Shown: positions 17,857 to 29,127 of the stretch, piece after piece | How the letters are laid out: every line of letters starts with the position of its first letter | Position numbering within the stretch: position 1 is the stretch's first letter | DNA from: a virus | DNA length: 36,813 bases | Virus record (IMG/VR): IMGVR_UViG_3300042485_000262 | Span: 1-36,813 of that record | Strand: one strand, 5' to 3' | Notes under the pieces: model-generated | Told to the model about the DNA's origin: nothing | The model's database searches: none | Seen by the model: the letters and a program-made list of their open reading frames with translations, nothing else | Translations under genes and position numbers: made by a program

Positions 17857-18038
17857 TTTCATTTTCCACAGAATATTTAGAAGGCGGGTGCGTAGTTATA
17901 CGTGACTTCCAATCAGAACCGAAAGGTCGAGTGCTATCTATCGTAGTACGCGACAACAGGTACGAAGCTGAGCAGACAGCTCAATACATTTGCGACTTAT
18001 TAAACAAAGACCTAAGAAATGAACTGGGAACTTTATGA
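17844..18038 (+). CDS. Hypothetical protein (64 aa), possibly leaderless
   Basis: 64 aa, beta then helix (MRYGVSFSTEYLEGGCVVIR..., YEAEQTAQYICDLLNKDL). No SD; the ATG lies 7 nt after an extended -10-like box with no clear -35. It overlaps the next gene by 20 nt. Unknown function. Confidence 0.65.
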   Translation: MRYGVSFSTEYLEGGCVVIRDFQSEPKGRVLSIVVRDNRYEAEQTAQYICDLLNKDLRNELGTL

Positions 18039-18210
18039 GGTTTGGGCCGTTGATCTTGACGGCCGCGAAGAACTCGTTGAAACCACTAAGAGCATGAAGG
18101 AAGCGAGAGTTATTGCTCAAACACAGCTCGAGCTAGAAGACTGCACCAAGTGCTACATCTACAAAGAAGATGAAGAAGGTGACTTGATCAAAGTCGATAC
18201 GATACGATAA
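18019..18210 (+). CDS. Hypothetical protein (63 aa)
   Basis: 63 aa (MNWELYEVWAVDLDGREELV...), beta-beta-helix-beta and acidic. Starts inside the previous gene (20-nt overlap) and ends 7 nt before the tRNA cluster. Unknown function. Confidence 0.65.
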   Translation: MNWELYEVWAVDLDGREELVETTKSMKEARVIAQTQLELEDCTKCYIYKEDEEGDLIKVDTIR

Positions 18211-18217
18211 GAATTAC

Positions 18218-18302
18218 GCGACTGTGGTGAAATAGGTAGACACAAGAGACTTAAAATCTCTCGCTGAAGGGCGTACCGGTTCGATTCCGGTCAGTCGCAC
18301 CA
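18218..18302 (+). tRNA. tRNA-Leu (UAA)
   Basis: 85 nt with CCA encoded. Acceptor GCGACTG/CAGTCGC, anticodon loop CTTAAAA (anticodon TAA), long variable arm as in class II tRNAs, T-arm CCGGTTCGATTCCGG. First of a three-tRNA cluster. Confidence 0.95.
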
Positions 18303-18309
18303 AGAGTAA

Positions 18310-18387
<78 letters not shown>

Positions 18388-18390
18388 TAT

Positions 18391-18467
18391 CAGCCCTTAG
18401 CTCAGTTGGATAGAGCAACAGCCTTCTAAGCTGTAGGCCACTGGTTCGAATCCAGTAGGGCTGGCCA
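18391..18467 (+). tRNA. tRNA-Arg (UCU)
   Basis: 77 nt with CCA encoded. Acceptor CAGCCCT/AGGGCTG, anticodon loop CTTCTAA (TCT), T-arm CTGGTTCGAATCCAG. It reads AGA/AGG. Two bases after the CCA begins the next promoter's -35. Confidence 0.95.
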
Positions 18468-18469
18468 GG

Positions 18470-18498
18470 TTGACAGTCGATTCGTTTGGTGTTATACT
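18470..18498 (+). promoter_or_regulatory. Sigma-70 promoter after the tRNA cluster
   Basis: TTGACA (18470-18475), 17 bp, TATACT (18493-18498). Leader GGAGCGAA at 18519-18526. Confidence 0.85.
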
Positions 18499-18528
18499 GT
18501 AGTTACAGTGAACAAATAGGAGCGAACT

Positions 18529-18756
18529 ATGAAGATCAAACTAGCTATTGTGGTAACCACAGCCGTTGCCCTGCTGTTGATGTCAGGTTGTGCATCAACT
18601 AGCAATACCAGCCAAAACCCCTACGCAACCGCTATCATTGCAGCCAACACGGTACGCAATGCACAAGGTTTGACCCGTAACGGAGTCAACGCAGAGCTGA
18701 ATCAACAGCTGAAGAACATGTTGCGTAATTACAACAGAAGCCAAGGTAGCTATTGA
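18529..18756 (+). CDS. Small lipoprotein (75 aa)
   Basis: 75 aa with a classic lipoprotein signal: basic N-terminus, hydrophobic core and lipobox LLMSGC (16-21), so lipidation at Cys21. The mature part is Asn/Gln-rich and hydrophilic. Promoter and AGGAGCGAAC SD place it in the early array, which fits a superinfection-exclusion lipoprotein better than a late spanin; inference only. Its TGA stop lies in the next -35. Confidence 0.8.
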   Translation: MKIKLAIVVTTAVALLLMSGCASTSNTSQNPYATAIIAANTVRNAQGLTRNGVNAELNQQLKNMLRNYNRSQGSY

Positions 18757-18781
18757 CACTTTGGCTTCTTGGCTGTATAAT
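18736..18781 (+). promoter_or_regulatory. Sigma-70 promoter with a 9-bp inverted repeat
   Basis: TTGACA (18753-18758), 17 bp, TATAAT (18776-18781). AGAAGCCAA (18736-18744) and TTGGCTTCT (18761-18769) are complements with the -35 in the loop. The lipoprotein stop codon TGA is within the -35. Leader GGAGCGAA at 18804-18811. Confidence 0.85.
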
Positions 18782-18812
18782 TAACACATACACTAAACAA
18801 CTAGGAGCGAAA

Positions 18813-18995
18813 ATGCTAGTTCACTTTATCAACTCAGGCTTCAACACAGACAACGGTATATTTGAAGTTGAAGTACACAGCCTAAAGATCGACGGCAACA
18901 ACCGTCCCTACGCTATTGTGGCCAATCCCTTCCGCCCTACAGATTCATGCCGTGCAGAGTTTAATGGCACTGAATGGGTGGTTGACTTTGATTGA
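18813..18995 (+). CDS. Hypothetical early protein (60 aa)
   Basis: 60 aa, beta-rich (MLVHFINSGFNTDNGIFEVE...). The frame is open upstream through the promoter, but the CTAGGAGCGAA SD sets the start at 18813. The C-terminal VVDFD is encoded on the next promoter's -35. Unknown function. Confidence 0.7.
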   Translation: MLVHFINSGFNTDNGIFEVEVHSLKIDGNNRPYAIVANPFRPTDSCRAEFNGTEWVVDFD

Positions 18996-19010
18996 TTTTG
19001 GCGCTATAAT
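18982..19010 (+). promoter_or_regulatory. Sigma-70 promoter overlapping gene end
   Basis: TTGACT (18982-18987), 17 bp, TATAAT (19005-19010); GTT GAC codes for Val-Asp of the upstream protein. Confidence 0.85.
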
Positions 19011-19040
19011 AGCTGTACACTGAAACATTAGGAGCACTAC

Positions 19041-19208
19041 ATGGATTACCTAATTAAGATGGAAATGGCACAGGCACTTATCCTACAGGCCATTGCGTTG
19101 GTTGAGAAAGTTGACGGGTTAGAGTCAGTAGAAGAAGGCTTGAGAGAAGCCAATTGCAACCTCAGAGAAGAGATTAACGAGTACAAAAGCCACGCAGATT
19201 TTGGTTGA
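19041..19208 (+). CDS. Small helical protein (55 aa)
   Basis: 55 aa (MDYLIKMEMAQALILQAIAL...), almost entirely helix with heptad-like spacing, possibly a coiled coil. SD TTAGGAGCA. The stop TGA is part of the next -35 (ggTTGACA). Unknown function. Confidence 0.7.
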   Translation: MDYLIKMEMAQALILQAIALVEKVDGLESVEEGLREANCNLREEINEYKSHADFG

Positions 19209-19233
19209 CAGATTGAGCAATCCTTGCTATAAT
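19205..19233 (+). promoter_or_regulatory. Sigma-70 promoter containing the upstream stop codon
   Basis: TTGACA (19205-19210), 17 bp, TATAAT (19228-19233). Leader GGAGCGAA at 19256-19263. Confidence 0.85.
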
Positions 19234-19267
19234 ATACACATACACTAGCAAACAAGGAGCGAAACTT

Positions 19268-19648
19268 ATGAGCAACGAATTCAAAAGCTGGGAAGAGATG
19301 ACTACTGTAGAGCAGTATGCATGCCAGTTCTGGGATATGTACAAGGATGCCTACGGCGTTCGCCCACGCGGTATCGATACCTCTAGCTGGACAGAGGCAG
19401 AGTTCGAAGCTGAGTTCGTTCAGTTGAGCAAGACCATCGATGAGAACTACCGGGACCAGTTGGCCCGTGAAGAAGTGGCCAAGCATGACTTCGAGATGCG
19501 TATGCTGAGCCTGCTCCAAACAGGTGCCAAGGATCGTGAGATGGCCCTGCGTTGGATACACGAGGCAGAGGGTAGCAACGGTGACGACGAGTACCTTTGC
19601 TTCTTGCTTGGTCTTCCATATCGTTACTTTGTCAAGGAGGCAGTATGA
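19268..19648 (+). CDS. Conserved hypothetical (126 aa)
   Basis: 126 aa, helical and acidic, with a C-terminal motif set MALRWIHEAEG and LCFLLGLPY that I associate with a family of phage and bacterial hypotheticals (WI.EAEG...YL...LGLPY). SD AAGGAGCGAAAC. Forms a two-gene unit with the next gene (ATGA overlap). Function unknown. Confidence 0.8.
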   Translation: MSNEFKSWEEMTTVEQYACQFWDMYKDAYGVRPRGIDTSSWTEAEFEAEFVQLSKTIDENYRDQLAREEVAKHDFEMRMLSLLQTGAKDREMALRWIHEAEGSNGDDEYLCFLLGLPYRYFVKEAV

Positions 19649-19869
19649 TTACAGTAGAGTCTAGAAGCAACTACGATCAGCGTCACGGTGGATGCTTTGA
19701 TCGTGGCTCGGCAGACAGCTATTATGGACGAGTGCGTGATCCACACTTCTATGTGGCGGGCACTGGAACCAGCGATAGAGTCACTGATCTAACACCCTCA
19801 GAGATCCAGGCCTACTTGGCGGGTTATCAGTGGAACGAACAGTTTGGAGACAAAAAGAGTTGGGATTGA
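19645..19869 (+). CDS. Conserved hypothetical, SRSNYDQRHGG motif (74 aa)
   Basis: 74 aa. The block SRSNYDQRHGGCFDRGSADS followed by YYGR...PH-FYVAGT is a distinctive motif seen in small phage and bacterial proteins that often accompany the preceding 126-aa family. Start at 19645 (ATGA overlap, AAGGAGGCAG SD). Function unknown; the Tyr/Arg/His clustering suggests nucleic-acid contact. Confidence 0.8.
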   Translation: MITVESRSNYDQRHGGCFDRGSADSYYGRVRDPHFYVAGTGTSDRVTDLTPSEIQAYLAGYQWNEQFGDKKSWD

Positions 19870-19873
19870 TTGG

Positions 19874-19902
19874 TTGACGACTTGTCCAAAAGGCCTTATA
19901 AT
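19874..19902 (+). promoter_or_regulatory. Sigma-70 promoter
   Basis: TTGACG (19874-19879), 17 bp, TATAAT (19897-19902), 5 bases after the upstream stop. Confidence 0.85.
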
Positions 19903-19935
19903 ACATACATAGACAGCAACAAGTAGGAGTTAGAA

Positions 19936-20109
19936 ATGCGTAGAACCCAAGCAGACCGTCAAGCAGAAGCCGCTCGTGCCCAACAGATCACTGAGCAACG
20001 TGTCCAGGATCGCAAGACCGGAGAGTTCTACAATCCTAAAGAAGCTTTCGACAAGCTGATGAACAAGCCCGAAGTCCTGGCTAGCTTGAAGCGTTTGGCA
20101 GTACGTTGA
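19936..20109 (+). CDS. Small basic helical protein (57 aa)
   Basis: 57 aa, basic and helical (MRRTQADRQAEAARAQQITE...), likely nucleic-acid binding by charge. SD TAGGAGTTAG. The stop overlaps the next ATG (TGATG). Unknown function. Confidence 0.7.
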   Translation: MRRTQADRQAEAARAQQITEQRVQDRKTGEFYNPKEAFDKLMNKPEVLASLKRLAVR

Positions 20110-20255
20110 TGAAGTATACACTGATCACCCGCTCGGGCAAGGTGTATACTTTCTATGTAGCAGCTCTGGCAGAGCAGTTCCAGCAGGCCTATGGCGGACA
20201 AGTAATTACCCAAGACATTTTGGTTGACAAGGTTGCCCAAATCCAGTATAATTAA
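20109..20255 (+). CDS. Small protein whose C-terminus is a promoter (48 aa)
   Basis: 48 aa (MKYTLITRSGKVYTFYVAAL...). The last 11 residues, LVDKVAQIQYN, are encoded by the complete promoter of the next gene: GTT GAC from the -35 and CAG TAT AAT TAA from the -10 and start of the leader. Coupled to the previous gene. Unknown function. Confidence 0.65.
   Translation: MKYTLITRSGKVYTFYVAALAEQFQQAYGGQVITQDILVDKVAQIQYN
20224..20252 (+). promoter_or_regulatory. Sigma-70 promoter entirely inside coding sequence
   Basis: TTGACA (20224-20229), 17 bp, TATAAT (20247-20252); the -10 supplies the last Tyr and Asn codons of the upstream gene. Confidence 0.85.
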
Positions 20256-20282
20256 CACATAGACAGCAACAAGGAGCAGCAT

Positions 20283-20474
20283 ATGGGTTACAAGGTACTG
20301 GGCAAAACAGAAGACTTGATGCAAGGCTACGAGCCCCGCAAGGGACTTGAAGGTCCATTTAACTTCAACGGGCGAGTGTTGTATTATGACAACGCAGAGG
20401 GCAAGTACTGGGATCCGCGTACAGACTTCTATGTCACCTACGATGAATACTTTCGGTTGACAGGCCTCATCTAA
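20283..20474 (+). CDS. Hypothetical early protein (63 aa)
   Basis: 63 aa, Tyr-rich (MGYKVLGKTEDLMQGYEPRK..., KYWDPRTDFYVTYDEYF). C-terminus FRLTGLI overlays the next -35. SD AAGGAGCAGC. Unknown function. Confidence 0.7.
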   Translation: MGYKVLGKTEDLMQGYEPRKGLEGPFNFNGRVLYYDNAEGKYWDPRTDFYVTYDEYFRLTGLI

Positions 20475-20485
20475 ACCTGTATAAT
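20457..20485 (+). promoter_or_regulatory. Sigma-70 promoter overlapping gene end
   Basis: TTGACA (20457-20462), 17 bp, TATAAT (20480-20485). ACAGG (20460-20464) and CCTGT (20476-20480) are complementary and join the two boxes. Leader GGAGCGAA at 20508-20515. Confidence 0.85.
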
Positions 20486-20519
20486 TAAGACTTAAACACA
20501 GCACATAGGAGCGAACCAA

Positions 20520-20912
20520 ATGGCTTATATTTCCGCAACAGACGTCCAGGCAATCCGCACAGAACTCAAACAGCGTTTCCCCAAGTGGAAGTTCGCAGTG
20601 CGCAAAGGCGCAGGTAGCCTGTCAGTAGATGTCAACATCATGCAGGGCACTGCGAGCTTTGATGATCATTTCAGTAATGGACGCCGTTATGCACAGGTTA
20701 ACCAGTACTGGATCGCAGACCACTTCAAAGACTCTAGTGAGCGTCAAGCTATTGAAATGATCAATGAGATCATGCACAATGCTCCGGGTCGTGCAGGTGG
20801 CAAACAGTACTTCGATGAGAGCGATGCACAGACTGACTACTTCCACACAGCGTTCTACACGCACTTGAGCATTGGCAAATGGGACAAAGATTACAGCTGC
20901 GTAGAAGGTTAA
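20520..20912 (+). CDS. LPD29-like domain protein (130 aa)
   Basis: 130 aa resembling the large polyvalent-protein-associated domain LPD29: start MAYISATDVQAIRTELKQRF, then PKWKFAVRK and VDVNIMQG, with a Tyr/Phe-rich C-terminal half (SDAQTDYFHTAFYTHLSIG). Such domains occur alone in phages and within polyvalent proteins of mobile elements; the activity is unknown. SD AGGAGCGAACC. Confidence 0.75.
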   Translation: MAYISATDVQAIRTELKQRFPKWKFAVRKGAGSLSVDVNIMQGTASFDDHFSNGRRYAQVNQYWIADHFKDSSERQAIEMINEIMHNAPGRAGGKQYFDESDAQTDYFHTAFYTHLSIGKWDKDYSCVEG

Positions 20913-20916
20913 ATGG

Positions 20917-20945
20917 TTGACAGGGTTGCCCAAACCCTGTATAAT
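20917..20945 (+). promoter_or_regulatory. Sigma-70 promoter with an inverted-repeat spacer
   Basis: TTGACA (20917-20922), 17 bp, TATAAT (20940-20945). ACAGGGTT (20920-20927) and AACCCTGT (20933-20940) are perfect complements linking the two boxes. Confidence 0.85.
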
Positions 20946-20976
20946 TAACACATACACTAAACAACTAGGAGCTGAT

Positions 20977-21174
20977 ATGACTAACGAACAATTTGCTAAG
21001 ACCTTGAAGGTAGGTGTGTTTGCTGACCGCGACACAGTTGCTGAAGCACTAGAGTACGCTTACGCCGTGTTGAAAGGTAACCCTGCAGGCCTTACAGCTC
21101 TGCATGTGGTACTGAACACAGTGGCTAACCAGATTGAGCTGAATGCTCTACACGAAGAATTAGGAGTAGCATAA
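20977..21174 (+). CDS. Hypothetical helical protein (65 aa)
   Basis: 65 aa, helical (MTNEQFAKTLKVGVFADRDT..., LTALHVVLNTVANQIEL). SD CTAGGAGCTGA fixes the start at 20977 even though the frame is open into the promoter. TAATG overlap with the next gene. Unknown function. Confidence 0.7.
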   Translation: MTNEQFAKTLKVGVFADRDTVAEALEYAYAVLKGNPAGLTALHVVLNTVANQIELNALHEELGVA

Positions 21175-21272
21175 TGGCGGACGTTCTACATGCACTTTAT
21201 ATGACAATGGAACTGTGGATCTTTTTGGCAGTTCTAGGAGTTAGTATTTTAGTGGTTGACGGTTGGCGTTAA
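21174..21272 (+). CDS. Single-pass membrane micropeptide (32 aa)
   Basis: 32 aa: MADVLHALYMTMELWIFLAV, then LGVSILVVDGWR. Residues 10-28 form one membrane helix. TAATG overlap with the 65-aa gene; AGGAG lies 7-11 nt upstream. The last residues VVDGWR are encoded on the next promoter's -35 and spacer. Unknown function. Confidence 0.55.
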   Translation: MADVLHALYMTMELWIFLAVLGVSILVVDGWR

Positions 21273-21284
21273 AGACAGTATAAT
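21256..21284 (+). promoter_or_regulatory. Sigma-70 promoter of the structured RNA
   Basis: TTGACG (21256-21261), 17 bp, TATAAT (21279-21284). Transcription should start near 21291; no protein-coding frame follows for about 400 nt. Confidence 0.85.
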
Positions 21285-21290
21285 AGATAC

Positions 21291-21630
21291 ATAGACAGAA
21301 GCAAGGCGATCCTCAAATGTAAGAACCCAGCAGAAATGCAAAAAGGGTTGTAACCAAGGGATCCGAAGCGAGTTTGGAGACTCGGCCTAAACGATAACAT
21401 AGACAGTTAGAAAAGAGTTAAAGGTTACCTACACCGTTAGGCACAGTAAGAGAGGAGCACAGGGGCCGCCCTACGCAATCTTACAGTGCATGAAATAAGG
21501 TCAGCGGCTTAGGCTGTGTGGACCCGGAGAAGCGGCGGAGTATGTAGGCAGTAATGACGGTACAAGCCCTTGTGGAGACGGTCCCTTGGGTAGACTACAT
21601 GTTCCTTTAGTTCTTTTCTAACTGTCATGA
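21291..21630 (+). ncRNA. Structured noncoding RNA of unknown class (~340 nt)
   Basis: No frame is usable: AUGs are followed almost at once by stops (AUG-UAA at 21317, AUG-AAA-UAA, AUG-UAG). The RNA can form a 23-bp closing helix, 21402-21424 with 21604-21626, with two G-U pairs and no mismatch. Inside it lie 21441-21450 with 21480-21489 (9 of 10 pairs) and ATGTAG/CTACAT (21542-21547 with 21595-21600). The 5' part holds a GCA-GAAA-TGC tetraloop hairpin within AACCC/GGGTT and a CGAGT/ACTCG hairpin. I do not recognise tmRNA, RNase P RNA, 6S RNA or a group I intron core. It is transcribed from its own array-type promoter. Confidence 0.7.
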
Positions 21631-21635
21631 CTAGG

Positions 21636-21664
21636 TTGACAGCTAGCCAAATTAGTTGTATAAT
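21636..21664 (+). promoter_or_regulatory. Sigma-70 promoter
   Basis: TTGACA (21636-21641), 17 bp, TATAAT (21659-21664), directly after the structured RNA. Leader GGAGCGAA at 21683-21690. Confidence 0.85.
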
Positions 21665-21694
21665 TAACACTTACACACATTAGGAGCGAACCAA

Positions 21695-22078
21695 ATGGCT
21701 AAGACACTCAAAGACATCGACAGCAACAAGCTGGGCGACTACCTGGAAGACTACTGTAACGATGCATTGAACAAGCGGCTCCGCAAGTTCCTAGTTCTAG
21801 ATGATCCAGCTAATATTGAGAACATCCTGGACAAGGCTAACTTTGAAGATGTTACCAACGAAGACATCCTAGTGGGCATTGCGGTGGCAGAAGCCACACT
21901 GGTACAGGTTAATCGGGTACTGAAAGCACAGGGCATCAACTTTGCATTCCGACGCTTTGATATGATCGAATACGATACCTATATGTTAGTCAACACTAAC
22001 GAGAATCTCAAAGCCACTGCCCAGCGGGTGCGAGAGTTCCCCTTCAAGACCAAACAGGTTGACAGTGGCCCGTTTTGA
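21695..22078 (+). CDS. Hypothetical early protein (127 aa)
   Basis: 127 aa, helical and acidic (LKDIDSNKLGDYLEDYCNDA..., ILVGIAVAEATLVQVNRVLKAQG). SD AGGAGCGAACC. The C-terminal QVDSGPF overlays the next promoter, whose -35 supplies Val-Asp. No family recognised. Confidence 0.75.
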   Translation: MAKTLKDIDSNKLGDYLEDYCNDALNKRLRKFLVLDDPANIENILDKANFEDVTNEDILVGIAVAEATLVQVNRVLKAQGINFAFRRFDMIEYDTYMLVNTNENLKATAQRVREFPFKTKQVDSGPF

Positions 22079-22087
22079 CAGTATAAT
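22059..22087 (+). promoter_or_regulatory. Sigma-70 promoter overlapping gene end
   Basis: TTGACA (22059-22064), 17 bp, TATAAT (22082-22087). A second TTGACA at 22075-22080 contains the upstream stop but is badly spaced. Confidence 0.85.
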
Positions 22088-22117
22088 TACTACTTAAACA
22101 ACACATAGGAGCGACTT

Positions 22118-22393
22118 ATGAATGTACAGCAAATCAACACAGCGATCATCACAGGCCAACTGAGCAACAGCGATCTGGACTCAATCCAAGACGCTATCCG
22201 ATTCGCCAAAAGCCGCATTGCCAATCAAATGAGCGTGACACTAAGCCCAGGCCGCAAGGTCACAATGACACACGTCAAGCTGGGCGGCCGTGTTACAGGC
22301 ACCGTGCTCAAGGTTAAGATCAAGAAGGCAGATGTGCGTTTGGACACGGGTATGATCTATACAGTGCCCTTGAGCATGTTGACAGCTGTCTAA
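22118..22393 (+). CDS. Hypothetical basic beta protein (91 aa)
   Basis: 91 aa. N-terminal helix pair (1-35), then a small SH3/KOW-like beta part: LSPGRKVTMTHVKLGGRVTG, TVLKVKIKKADVRLDTG and MIYTVPLSMLTAV. The KOW-like reading is an impression, compatible with RNA or ribosome contact. C-terminus MLTAV is encoded on the next -35. SD AGGAGCGACTT. Confidence 0.7.
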   Translation: MNVQQINTAIITGQLSNSDLDSIQDAIRFAKSRIANQMSVTLSPGRKVTMTHVKLGGRVTGTVLKVKIKKADVRLDTGMIYTVPLSMLTAV

Positions 22394-22407
22394 ATAGACT
22401 GTATAAT
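22379..22407 (+). promoter_or_regulatory. Sigma-70 promoter overlapping gene end
   Basis: TTGACA (22379-22384), 17 bp, TATAAT (22402-22407). GACAGCTGTC (22381-22390) is a palindrome. Last promoter of the array. Confidence 0.85.
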
Positions 22408-22436
22408 AACTAATTAAACACATAGGAGCGACTTAT

Positions 22437-23306
22437 ATGAATAAAGGTTACAAGGTTCTCAAGCTAGACGCAGAGAAAGCCACAGTCAAGTCAATGGAGC
22501 AGTTGGCCATTGAGAAGAATCTAACTGAGACAGATGCAGAGATCATCGAGCGTCTGCGCCAACGTTTTGACATCCTGGACGACATGACCCGTGCTGTCAA
22601 GAAGGGTGATGTACGTGCTATGATCGTAACAGGCCCGCCAGGTGTAGGCAAATCCTTTGGTGTTGAGACAGTACTGAGCAAGCATGATGTGTTCGCAGAC
22701 ATTGCCAACAACTCCAAGCTGAAGAAGTACGAAGTAGTCAAGGGCGCTATGAGTGCAATTGGACTCTACAAGAAGCTCTACGAGTACTCAGATGCCAAGT
22801 GTATCCTAGTGTTCGATGACTGTGACAGTGTCCTGCTTGATGACCTTAGTCTTAACATCCTTAAGGCTGCATTGGACAGTTCAAAGAAGCGTACCATTCA
22901 TTGGAACACTGACAGCCGTCTCTTACGTAGTGAGGGTGTGCCCAACTCATTCGAGTTCAAGGGTGGTGCAATCTTTATTACCAACATTAAGTTTGAGCAC
23001 GTTAAGAGTAAGAAGCTGCAGGATCACTTGATGGCACTTGAGAGCCGTTGCCACTACTTGGATCTGACTATTGATACAGAGCGTGAGAAGGTCTTGCGTA
23101 TTAAGCAGATCGTAGCAGACGGCATGCTGGACTCATATGACTTTGAAGAGTGGCAGAAGCTGGAGTTGCTGGACTTCATTGATACTAATAAGAAGAAGCT
23201 GCGCGAGCTAAGTCTTAGGACTGTGCTTAAGATCGCAGACTTGCGCAAGAGCTTTCCAGATCGTTGGAAGGCTGTTGCAGATGTAACAGTAATGCGTAGG
23301 ACGTGA
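22437..23306 (+). CDS. AAA-type ATPase (289 aa)
   Basis: 289 aa with Walker A GPPGVGKS (66-73), Walker B ILVFDDCD (123-130) and an IFITNIKFE sensor-1-like strand; an acidic/helical lid follows (200-289). The layout is of a single-domain AAA protein as found in T4-like and other marine or freshwater phages; partner unknown (possibly replication or a remodelling role). Last and largest gene of the early array. SD TAGGAGCGAC; the start at 22437 fits. Followed by an RNA element and a strong terminator. Confidence 0.85.
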   Translation: MNKGYKVLKLDAEKATVKSMEQLAIEKNLTETDAEIIERLRQRFDILDDMTRAVKKGDVRAMIVTGPPGVGKSFGVETVLSKHDVFADIANNSKLKKYEVVKGAMSAIGLYKKLYEYSDAKCILVFDDCDSVLLDDLSLNILKAALDSSKKRTIHWNTDSRLLRSEGVPNSFEFKGGAIFITNIKFEHVKSKKLQDHLMALESRCHYLDLTIDTEREKVLRIKQIVADGMLDSYDFEEWQKLELLDFIDTNKKKLRELSLRTVLKIADLRKSFPDRWKAVADVTVMRRT

Positions 23307-23446
23307 TTCGCTCCCACTAGTACGCTGCTGTTATAGTAGTGCTAGGGCTGTAGCCAAGTGCAATGCTTGCTCTACACGCTCTAGTTGTTGTGCCCCTAGT
23401 GTTATAAATCCGATTCGCTCCCGGTGACACTAGGGGTTTTTTTTTT
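23305..23446 (+). ncRNA. Candidate anti-ribosome-binding-site RNA (3'-UTR or sRNA)
   Basis: The transcript beyond the AAA gene holds GATTCGCTCCC twice (23305-23315 and 23412-23422). Its core UUCGCUCC is the exact complement of GGAGCGAA, the ribosome binding site of nine genes in the array. The second copy lies in the loop of the terminator stem; the first abuts a CACTA/TAGTG hairpin. No consensus promoter is visible just upstream, so it would be a processed 3' end of the AAA mRNA. The complementarity is seen; regulation is inferred. Confidence 0.4.
23393..23446 (+). terminator. Strong intrinsic terminator of the early array
   Basis: CCCCTAGTGT (23393-23402) and ACACTAGGGG (23427-23436) form a perfect 10-bp stem with a 24-nt loop, followed directly by T10. 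Confidence 0.9.
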
Positions 23447-23759
23447 GGCTGCAATTTATTTACCATGACGAACTAAAAAGAAAAGTGATCAGAGAAATTA
23501 TTTCTCTCGGGGCCGTGGTGGTGAGGTCGGTGACGAGGTGGGGGGTCGGGGCTTTATATATTATATTATTAATACGCTATTATTAACGCTTAGTGGTGCT
23601 AAATCACCAGGCAGAAAGCATAAGTACTTCACCTAAATTTTTTGCGCGGCAGATTTTTTACCCTACAGGACCCATTTCGGGCTATATAGTGTTCCCGGTC
23701 TTTAGACCCTGCCAACTGATGAGCTTGCGAAGCTGTGGGCGATGAACAATCCCAACGGT
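23447..23759. other. Noncoding spacer between convergent units
   Basis: No gene seen. Contents: an AGAGAAAT/ATTTCTCT inverted repeat at 23491-23507, a G-rich tract on the plus strand (23509-23552), an AT-rich segment and small hairpins such as GGTC-TTTA-GACC near 23697-23708. Confidence 0.5.
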
Positions 23760-24506: not shown

Positions 24507-25655
24507 ATGCACACTTCGAAACCCTTATGCTGGGTTCCCTACTACTCAGCTGAAATTACCTACAAAGAAACTAAACCCTGCTGTAAGTTCAACTACAGTG
24601 ATCTCCTACCATATCCCAATATTCAAGACTTCGATTCAGACTCTGCTAATGTATGGCGCAAAGAGAGTTTTATGGGTCAAGAGCTGGCCAATCAATGCCG
24701 TGCCTGTAAGGTGCCCGATGGTGTACACAACTTTGAACGGCAGAATCGCAAAGAATTTATCAAGCTAGGATGGACAGCACCCACACGCCCAAGTCTGCGC
24801 AAGCTGATAATAGGCATGGACAACATCTGTGCATCATCGTGTATACAGTGCGGTCCACACTTTAGCAGCACTCTAAACAACTTGGCTAAAACACAAGACT
24901 ACCAGCAGATATTGGGTCAAGAGTATCAATTACCCGGAACTCAACAGATCGACTTTAATCAACTAGAGGGCAAGCTGGCTGATCTTGAAGTATTACACCT
25001 ATACGGTGGTGAACCCCTAATCAGTCCAAATTTAGAAAAGCTAGTCACTATGCTGCGCAGTCAAAGTCCCAAGCTGCGTAGAGTCGGTATAAGCACGGGA
25101 CTTACACGTATCAAAGAACGCAACGTTGCGCTGTTGGCAGAACTGGGTGTGCCCGTACTCTGTAACATTAGTCTAGATGGACCCATAGAGTTAAATTCAT
25201 GGATACGTGGCATTACACCCGACGAGTTTACCCAGAGTTGGGACATGTTACTCAAGTATGGACCTAATATAAGAATCATAGGATTTCAAACTACCATAGG
25301 CAGCTATAACACATTTGCTCTACCAGAACATGTCAAGTTTATGCAGTCACTGTGGCCTCAAGTTGGACATCGTTTACCACCGCACATAATGAGCACTATC
25401 ATACACAAACCTGAACAGCTACATCCCAAGCAGCTGCAGACAGCAGAAAAAAATGCCATTGTTCACAAGCTCACTGAATACTTACCTACAGCACCTACAT
25501 GGGCTCGAGAGTTAATTACCACAGCTATCCATGCACAGCAAGAGCCCGCAACTATAGACTGGGCGTTGGTGCAACGTAGAATGAATACCTTTGGTTTTTG
25601 GCGAGGTGATACTAGACAGTGGCAGCAACAGTACGATCATTATATGGGAGGTTAA
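24507..25655 (+). CDS. Radical SAM protein
   Basis: 382 aa. The 4Fe-4S cluster motif CASSCIQC (Cys108, Cys112, Cys115) fits CxxxCxxC, preceded by LIIGMDNI and followed by LYGGEPLISPNL (SAM/glycine motif GGEP). Extra cysteines at 25-26 (KPCCKF) and 64/67 (CRAC) suggest an auxiliary cluster at the N-terminus, as in twitch/SPASM-type peptide-modifying enzymes. Reaction unknown. It diverges from the oxygenase gene across a 111-bp gap; TTAAATAA lies 5 nt upstream of the ATG. Confidence 0.85.
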   Translation: MHTSKPLCWVPYYSAEITYKETKPCCKFNYSDLLPYPNIQDFDSDSANVWRKESFMGQELANQCRACKVPDGVHNFERQNRKEFIKLGWTAPTRPSLRKLIIGMDNICASSCIQCGPHFSSTLNNLAKTQDYQQILGQEYQLPGTQQIDFNQLEGKLADLEVLHLYGGEPLISPNLEKLVTMLRSQSPKLRRVGISTGLTRIKERNVALLAELGVPVLCNISLDGPIELNSWIRGITPDEFTQSWDMLLKYGPNIRIIGFQTTIGSYNTFALPEHVKFMQSLWPQVGHRLPPHIMSTIIHKPEQLHPKQLQTAEKNAIVHKLTEYLPTAPTWARELITTAIHAQQEPATIDWALVQRRMNTFGFWRGDTRQWQQQYDHYMGG

Positions 25656-27640: not shown

Positions 27641-27669
27641 ATTATATACTCTATTGTCAGTTAAGTAAA
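27641..27669 (-). promoter_or_regulatory. Sigma-70-like promoter of the helicase, leaderless
   Basis: TTTACT (27664-27669), 17 bp, TATAAT (27641-27646) on the minus strand; ATG 6 nt downstream. The -35 matches 4 of 6 consensus bases and overlaps the 3' end of the carbamoyltransferase gene. Confidence 0.6.
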
Positions 27670-29127
27670 GACTTTTACATCGTAATGGCTCTGGAAGTTC
27701 ATGGCATCCACTCGGTTATTGACCATGGGCTTACCCTTGATGTTTAGACTGGTGTTGAGCAACATGGGACATCCAGATCGATCATACCATGCTTCTAGCA
27801 CCTGTCTGATGGGTGTTCCATTTTGCGGAACTGTTTGAACACGACTAGTCCCGTCCCTATGAATGACAGCAGGAAATAAGTCAGGATGCCTACAGCGACT
27901 GATGTATTGCATATACCTATGATCACTGCTACTACCACACAGATCAAAGTACATGTCAGCATGTTCCTCCAAAATAACGGGCGCGAATGGTCTAAATTGT
28001 TGTCGTCTCTTGATTGCATTTACTGTGTCCTTAATATCATGACCTCTGGGATCTGCCAATAGGCTTCTATTGCCAAATGCTCTAGGTCCAAACTCTGCAC
28101 GTCCCTGTGCAACTCCGCATAGAGAATTGGTTATCAAGTGATCAACTATCTCATCGGGACTGGCTTTTATTTTCAAATCGTAACCTAGATCGCAACCTGG
28201 CCAAGGCATGTGTGTTCTAGTTTTGGCCAACACAGCACCAACACTGCTGCCAGCATCTCCAGGATTAGGCATGATCCAAACATGGTTGAAATGTTTGAAT
28301 GCAATGGGGTTAGCCGAACAGTTGAGCGCACATCCGCCCATGATTACCAAGTTAGTGCTGCCAGTCAGTGCCTTGGCCTTACTGATGATCTTGTCAAAAT
28401 AAGACTCGTATATTCTCTGTGTAGCAGCGGCAATATCAAATATATCGTTGACCACTAGGTCGGGTGCCCACTCTTGGCAACCTCGATGTAGATTGCCTTT
28501 TAGTGCAACCAGCTTACTAGAGTTGTCGTTAAAAAAGTCTTGCCTAATTCTATCATACAGTTTCTTTGGGTCGCCATATGCGGCCATACCCATTAGGATA
28601 TATTCTTCTTCGTTAGGCTTTAAAAAACAACGCTGTGTCATGGCTGAGTACCATAGACCTAGACTGTTGGGATAACTCTGACTGTATACTCGACGTAGTC
28701 CTTGTGGGCTACCTTGCCAAATAGTCAGTGTTTCAAACTCACCTATGGCATCTATCACTACCACGGCTGCTTCTTTATATCCGCTGGTATAGAATCCGCC
28801 AGCTGCATGACTTTCGTGATGCATAACAGTTGATATAGGTGCTGATACATTCCACTGTTTAAGATATCGTTTTATGTTATTGCTTCTATGATTGAATCCC
28901 TGCCCTGCATACCACTGTCTAGCGGTTTTGTATAAGGGCTTTTCGTACCACACTACTTCGTTGGGTTTACCCCAGCGATTTGCATATTTGACAATGCTGT
29001 CACATAGATCGGCATCATTTTTTTTGCCGCTGAATCTTTCGCTATGGCTAGCAAAGACTAGTTGATTGTCATCGAATACTGCCAGTGCGGCATCGTGACT
29101 GTTTGCTGAGATTCCCCAAGTAATCAT
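27661..29127 (-). CDS. NodU/TobZ-type carbamoyltransferase
   Basis: 488 aa. N-terminal ITWGISANSHDAALAVFDD and HHESHAAGGFYTSG (the metal/ATP-binding His motif) with VVVIDAIGEFE, then C-terminal YrdC-like GRAEFGPRAFGNRSLLADPR (carbamoyl phosphate/ATP binding) and KRRQQFRPFAPVI and LNTSLNIKGKP. These are the hallmarks of the NodU/CmcH/TobZ family, which transfers a carbamoyl group to hydroxyls. Homologues are frequent in T4-like phages; a role in DNA or glycan decoration is suspected but unproven. ATGA overlap with the 40-aa gene upstream. Confidence 0.9.
   Translation of the reverse strand: MITWGISANSHDAALAVFDDNQLVFASHSERFSGKKNDADLCDSIVKYANRWGKPNEVVWYEKPLYKTARQWYAGQGFNHRSNNIKRYLKQWNVSAPISTVMHHESHAAGGFYTSGYKEAAVVVIDAIGEFETLTIWQGSPQGLRRVYSQSYPNSLGLWYSAMTQRCFLKPNEEEYILMGMAAYGDPKKLYDRIRQDFFNDNSSKLVALKGNLHRGCQEWAPDLVVNDIFDIAAATQRIYESYFDKIISKAKALTGSTNLVIMGGCALNCSANPIAFKHFNHVWIMPNPGDAGSSVGAVLAKTRTHMPWPGCDLGYDLKIKASPDEIVDHLITNSLCGVAQGRAEFGPRAFGNRSLLADPRGHDIKDTVNAIKRRQQFRPFAPVILEEHADMYFDLCGSSSDHRYMQYISRCRHPDLFPAVIHRDGTSRVQTVPQNGTPIRQVLEAWYDRSGCPMLLNTSLNIKGKPMVNNRVDAMNFQSHYDVKVFT

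Follow-up and report, generated by a model that had tools for sequence, protein, structure and literature searches.

Two structured RNAs in tandem behind an early-type promoter in a virus contig related to jumbo phages

What is encoded by a stretch of about 340 nt that follows a strong promoter-like sequence in a virus contig and offers no usable reading frame? An earlier note, made from the letters alone, had proposed one structured RNA of an unlisted class behind its own early promoter. The stretch lies in a window of 36.8 kb, by which we mean the whole piece of DNA analysed, an IMG/VR virus record (contigs of this collection may be fragments); the nearest cultured relatives of its replicative helicase and of the neighbouring AAA protein are found in the group of the Pseudomonas jumbo phage PA5oct. 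The window also encodes a radical SAM protein and a Nol-like carbamoyltransferase (24507–25655 and 27661–29127).

Two modules behind one promoter

The predicted promoter of the unit, TTGACG-17-TATAAT at 21256–21284 (+ strand), carries 11 of 12 consensus bases, confirming the earlier assignment, and is found at the same place in relatives. The next unit (ORF 21695–22078) has a predicted promoter of its own, TTGACA-17-TATAAT at 21636–21664 (+ strand), in which all 12 bases match. In fact, the + strand between 18.0 and 23.5 kb contains 12 promoter-like sites with 11–12 of the 12 consensus bases, including 21256–21284, and 19 sites with at least nine matches were observed vs. a mean of 6.6 in shuffles. 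Most of the 12 strong sites (18000–23500, + strand) are located just upstream of a small ORF. As anticipated, no + strand ORF of at least 40 aa exists within 21285–21630, where two ORFs, both antisense, were found.

Does the stretch then encode a single RNA? A blastn search of the region against 80 loci encoding the AAA protein gave two distinct sets of matches, one covering query positions 39–150 with the remainder absent (L059, L018) and one covering 157–386 with the first part absent (L012, L020, L031, L063). Pattern scans of IMG/VR, run separately for the two halves, retrieved many further copies of each. We therefore rejected a single 340-nt RNA, since the halves occur apart and are distributed independently in other phage contigs: the stretch is two separate structured RNAs, RNA1 and RNA2, in tandem behind one early-type promoter. 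What stood of the original proposal is the absence from Rfam, the covariation described below and the promoter-proximal position in nearly all relatives; the unity of the 340 nt did not.

The Rfam covariance search, suggested earlier as a check, gave no significant match to a common family. At curated thresholds, three tRNAs were the sole matches in the window, and 21230–21700 had no convincing match among 4,227 families at E-values up to 10. Neither RNA1 nor RNA2 matched any of these families, and ten further RNA1/RNA2 loci likewise gave no family match for either RNA (E up to 10), so that a known Rfam class was rejected for both. Descriptions of RNA1 or RNA2 were not found in open-licence papers, preprints being outside the scope of this search. 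We rate the two as new RNA families belonging to an established kind, i.e., phage non-coding RNAs near tRNA islands, and claim no new functional class.

Folds and covariation

RNA2 (approximately 21400–21628, + strand) was delimited by its blastn homologues and by the core of a covariance model, R1, and is closed by stem P1, in which 21402–21424 pair with 21604–21626. The 23-bp helix noticed earlier is thus real: its 23 uninterrupted pairs comprise 21 Watson-Crick and two G-U pairs, whereas 300 dinucleotide shuffles yielded helices of at most 16. Inside lie two domains, resolved by covariation per pair. Domain P2 (21428–21548; 21428–21433/21543–21548 and 21434–21438/21534–21538) surrounds the hairpins P3 (21441–21448/21482–21489, inner part 21461–21464/21469–21472) and P4 (21499–21501/21522–21524), and domain P5 (21556–21603; 21556–21562/21596–21603 and 21566–21576/21582–21591) ends in the loop GACGG. 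Among relatives, the core measures about 160–240 nt.

For R1, 39 sequences were aligned, the structure was derived by RNAalifold with constraints set by eye, and a covariance model was then built, to which the core of the window (21420–21608), itself part of the training set, scores 130 bits. The model matched 16, 72, and 94 times in three sets of fetched loci; these raw counts include overlapping loci of one contig as well as near-identical contigs, and the analysis rests on A2, an alignment of 96 distinct RNA2 sequences. Here, standard pairs occupy 90.4% of the cells, and both sides change in 44 of the 50 pairs. When the partners were slid by one to three columns, the paired fraction was 38–46%, and none of 500 shuffles attained any of five measures. 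Model pairs ranked first to fifteenth in a scan for column covariation, which is not fully independent as A2 was fitted to the model; model-made alignments in general lean toward the structure of the model, and the window belongs to the training sets. The scan pointed to no additional pseudoknot within RNA2. Of the 50 model pairs, 45 form in the window.

Most RNA2 loci were fetched via the seed GGTTACCTA, and conservation at the seed is consequently in part ascertainment. Three loci (L088, L133, L136) carry CCAAC/GUUGG vs. CCUAC/GUAGG elsewhere, a compensatory change free of seed bias because these loci were fetched through RNA1. A putative pairing of the GGUUACC segment with 16S rRNA was set aside: a match of this length probably arises by chance, the segment is also partly paired, and its invariance stems partly from the search seed.

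RNA1 (approximately 21291–21391, + strand) is a pseudoknotted RNA of about 100 nt, scoring 118.8 bits with model R2, whose training set includes the window. Support for several helices, for a hairpin of the GNRA type and for a pseudoknot of three pairs comes from an alignment of 22 sequences. In the window, the helices are assigned to 21304–21307/21385–21388, 21309–21313/21358–21362, 21324–21328/21345–21349, and 21369–21373/21380–21384, the hairpin to 21330–21339 and the pseudoknot to 21355–21357/21374–21376. The hairpin has a GAAA tetraloop, so that both the tetraloop hairpin foreseen for the 5′ part and the inner helices are present. In this alignment, 99.3% of the cells are paired and 7 of 27 pairs change on both sides; support for the fold is thinner than for RNA2, since most RNA1 pairs never vary, and the covariation of the pseudoknot consists of one pair, C-G to U-A in two sequences. 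R2 also picks up more divergent copies.

The comparison of relatives proposed in the earlier note has thus been made, and these substitution patterns show the predicted folds of both RNA1 and RNA2 to be evolutionarily conserved. Covariation, rather than fold energy, is the decisive evidence for structure. The energy of the stretch is moderately unusual (z −3.2), and so modest a value is what would speak for an artefact or a hidden coding region, to which we assign a next to negligible probability in view of the covariation of RNA2 and RNA1, the stop codons in all six frames in nearly all RNA2 members and RNA2 core lengths that are not multiples of three.

Occurrence and genomic surroundings

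On 16 large virus contigs (185–364 kb), R1 detected a single RNA2 in 13 and no copy in the other three, and R2 found one RNA1 in three of the 16. RNA2 thus occurs once per genome in those large contigs that carry it, making it a recurrent single gene in many giant phages, and is not essential to all these phages, as three contigs do without it. At the locus L218, two copies of RNA2 follow each other in tandem. The compact, many-helix fold with its conserved unpaired segments might recall a ribozyme or intron-like element; this we hold to be very improbable, given the single copy, the intergenic location outside any gene and the lack of a match to an Rfam ribozyme or intron.

Among cultured phages, blastn with RNA1 and RNA2 gave promoter-length matches only. 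The RNA2 models matched neither T4 nor any of six cultured jumbo phages, and the copy already known from L132 was recovered in the same run; R2 was applied, among cultured jumbo phages, to one PA5oct stretch. Of note for this closest cultured relative is a putative lncRNA based on RNA-seq, ncRNA004 (PA5oct 246116–246734; L290:5040–5658), which lies about 2 kb upstream of the AAA homologue and resembles RNA1/RNA2 in position. R1 did not match this region, and kinship of RNA2 with it was rejected. A bacterial origin of RNA2 was rejected as well on exact-pattern scans of bacterial genomes, in which one pattern gave zero matches and another 11, none of them RNA2 by the model (best 13.7 bits); as the model is much more sensitive than scans of this kind, divergent copies could have escaped them. 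In one contig (L004/L247), the AAA protein is 97% identical to that of the window and a clearly different RNA2 subtype lies several kb off, an indication that early-region modules are exchanged or shuffled.

A TTGAC/TATAAT-type promoter lies at most 260 nt upstream of 83 of the 96 RNA2s, with RNA1 in between in 17 cases. Downstream, 46 of the 96 have a tRNA no more than 300 nt away, and many of the others have small ORFs or further promoters. In several loci, a conserved stretch, GTTACAGGGTGTTGGCC...GCCCGCCCAATCTAAT, is located 3′ of RNA2 (L012:660–760, L031:430–510) and may be another small RNA.

Of 32 distinct RNA1 cases, 31 lie immediately 3′ of such a promoter, and RNA1 occurs without RNA2 in L018, L059 and others. 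It is followed by RNA2 (16 cases), a ribosome-binding site with start codon (nine), another promoter (two) or other sequence (five), the last being partly structured RNA. In L014 (4855–5195), three elements come after RNA1: another sequence closed by a stem, a gene resembling tRNA-Asp and a GC-rich, structured-looking stretch of about 180 nt; the tRNA is the sole Rfam match there.

Proposed roles and comparison with known RNAs

The length of P1 across the 96 RNA2s is bimodal, with 2–9 pairs in 28, 12 in one, and 15–30 in 67, and the long stems consist of several unrelated sequences, each self-complementary. At about even chances, we propose that RNA2 is an early, stem-excised, trans-acting RNA and RNA1 a 5′ leader element. 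RNA2 would be made early from the early-type promoter and fold into P1–P5; where the closing stem is long (15–30 bp, as in the window), host RNase III would cut it from the longer transcript, similar to an rRNA precursor, and the freed RNA could act in trans, bound to a host or phage partner. The unrelated but self-complementary stems favour excision, as with helices cut by RNase III, and the roughly 28 of 96 stems too short for this enzyme argue against it. Phage RNase III (PF14622) was absent from 15 large contigs, so that the host enzyme would be needed. In tRNA arrays (L141, L145, L152 and similar), a separate hairpin lies 5′ of the long P1, where RNA1 is located elsewhere.

For RNA2, conserved as a single copy in front of genes that are not conserved themselves, a trans role is the simpler explanation. 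Its place near the promoter, as expected for a cis leader, speaks against this, as does the finding of no intrinsic terminator near RNA2. Both RNAs could accordingly be cis-acting 5′ leaders, modelled on HK022 put RNAs or rRNA leaders, that make the polymerase termination-resistant or lend stability to untranslated RNAs, e.g., tRNA arrays. We consider this possible, though rather improbable. Both RNAs are promoter-proximal, RNA2 heads a tRNA-carrying unit in the 46 cases given above, and terminator-like sites are not enriched around the region. However, RNA2 often lacks a tRNA array behind it and the next promoter follows immediately, leaving no conserved downstream target; this varied context of tRNA arrays, ORFs and promoters argues against one fixed cis target, and P1 joins both ends of RNA2. 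For RNA1, a cis role is our preferred reading, favoured by its near-constant place behind a promoter and the varied features that follow: on any transcript carrying it, it may protect the 5′ end or modify the polymerase.

In a narrower version of the trans reading, which names a mode of action, RNA2 would be a decoy, occupying a host factor or defence protein as a tRNA-, repeat- or rRNA-like mimic. The early promoter and the tRNA neighbourhood would fit, but RNA2 resembles neither tRNA nor any other Rfam family, and we deem a decoy improbable. Going further, RNA2 could be a dedicated host-takeover RNA of a widespread group of giant phages, single-copy, early and stem-excised, its folded core binding a host machine, and RNA1 a second new class, which we view as a doubtful prospect. 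If true, the machine would be the ribosome, the polymerase or a nuclease, RNA2 would stand for a functional class without a known phage RNA representative, and RNA1 would be a promoter-proximal pseudoknot protecting or licensing its carrier transcripts. The proposed processing of RNA2 is testable in laboratory E. coli, the native host not being required.

Regarding known systems, the Rfam models of tmRNA, RNase P, 6S, group I and group II had no match in the window or the ten further loci, in line with the lack of such signatures stated before; the sole tmRNA-type row, a permuted tmRNA (17.9 bits, E 6.5), lies outside RNA2. A retron msr-msd RNA and a bacterial Y RNA were rejected, as PF00078 reverse transcriptase and PF05731 (Ro60/TROVE) are absent from the 15 large contigs, 13 of them with RNA2. 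The put RNA of HK022 is likewise structured and lies close to where phage early transcripts begin, and the position of RNA1 behind its promoter fits a put-type element; no sequence or structural relation between the two was found.

In rRNA precursors, leader-trailer helices are cut by RNase III (PMC10250234); like a long P1, such a helix joins the two ends of the RNA, and the rRNA is released from a longer transcript (PMC10250234). This likeness concerns the way of working, not the family, processing of RNA2 being a proposal.

The T4 RNAs rnaC and rnaD (species 1 and 2), small stable RNAs without known function, also lie beside tRNA genes; they are classed as late (PMC9697503), in contrast to the early-type promoter before RNA2, and kinship was rejected since neither R1 nor R3 matched them above chance. 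GOLLD and ROOL, phage or prophage RNAs of no known function, often reside near tRNA islands (PMC12286853), a setting shared by RNA2 with its frequent downstream tRNAs. The earlier comparison with both, in style only, therefore holds for the setting and fails for size and family: many GOLLD members exceed 800 nt and ROOL is larger and highly complex, i.e., several hundred nt vs. the shorter RNA2 core, and neither Rfam model matched the window or the ten further loci (E up to 10). The early regions of giant phages thus contain structured RNAs overlooked by gene finders and Rfam alike. While T4 rnaC/rnaD, GOLLD and ROOL still lack a known function, RNA2 offers about 100 distinct members, a well-supported fold and a clear single-copy gene.
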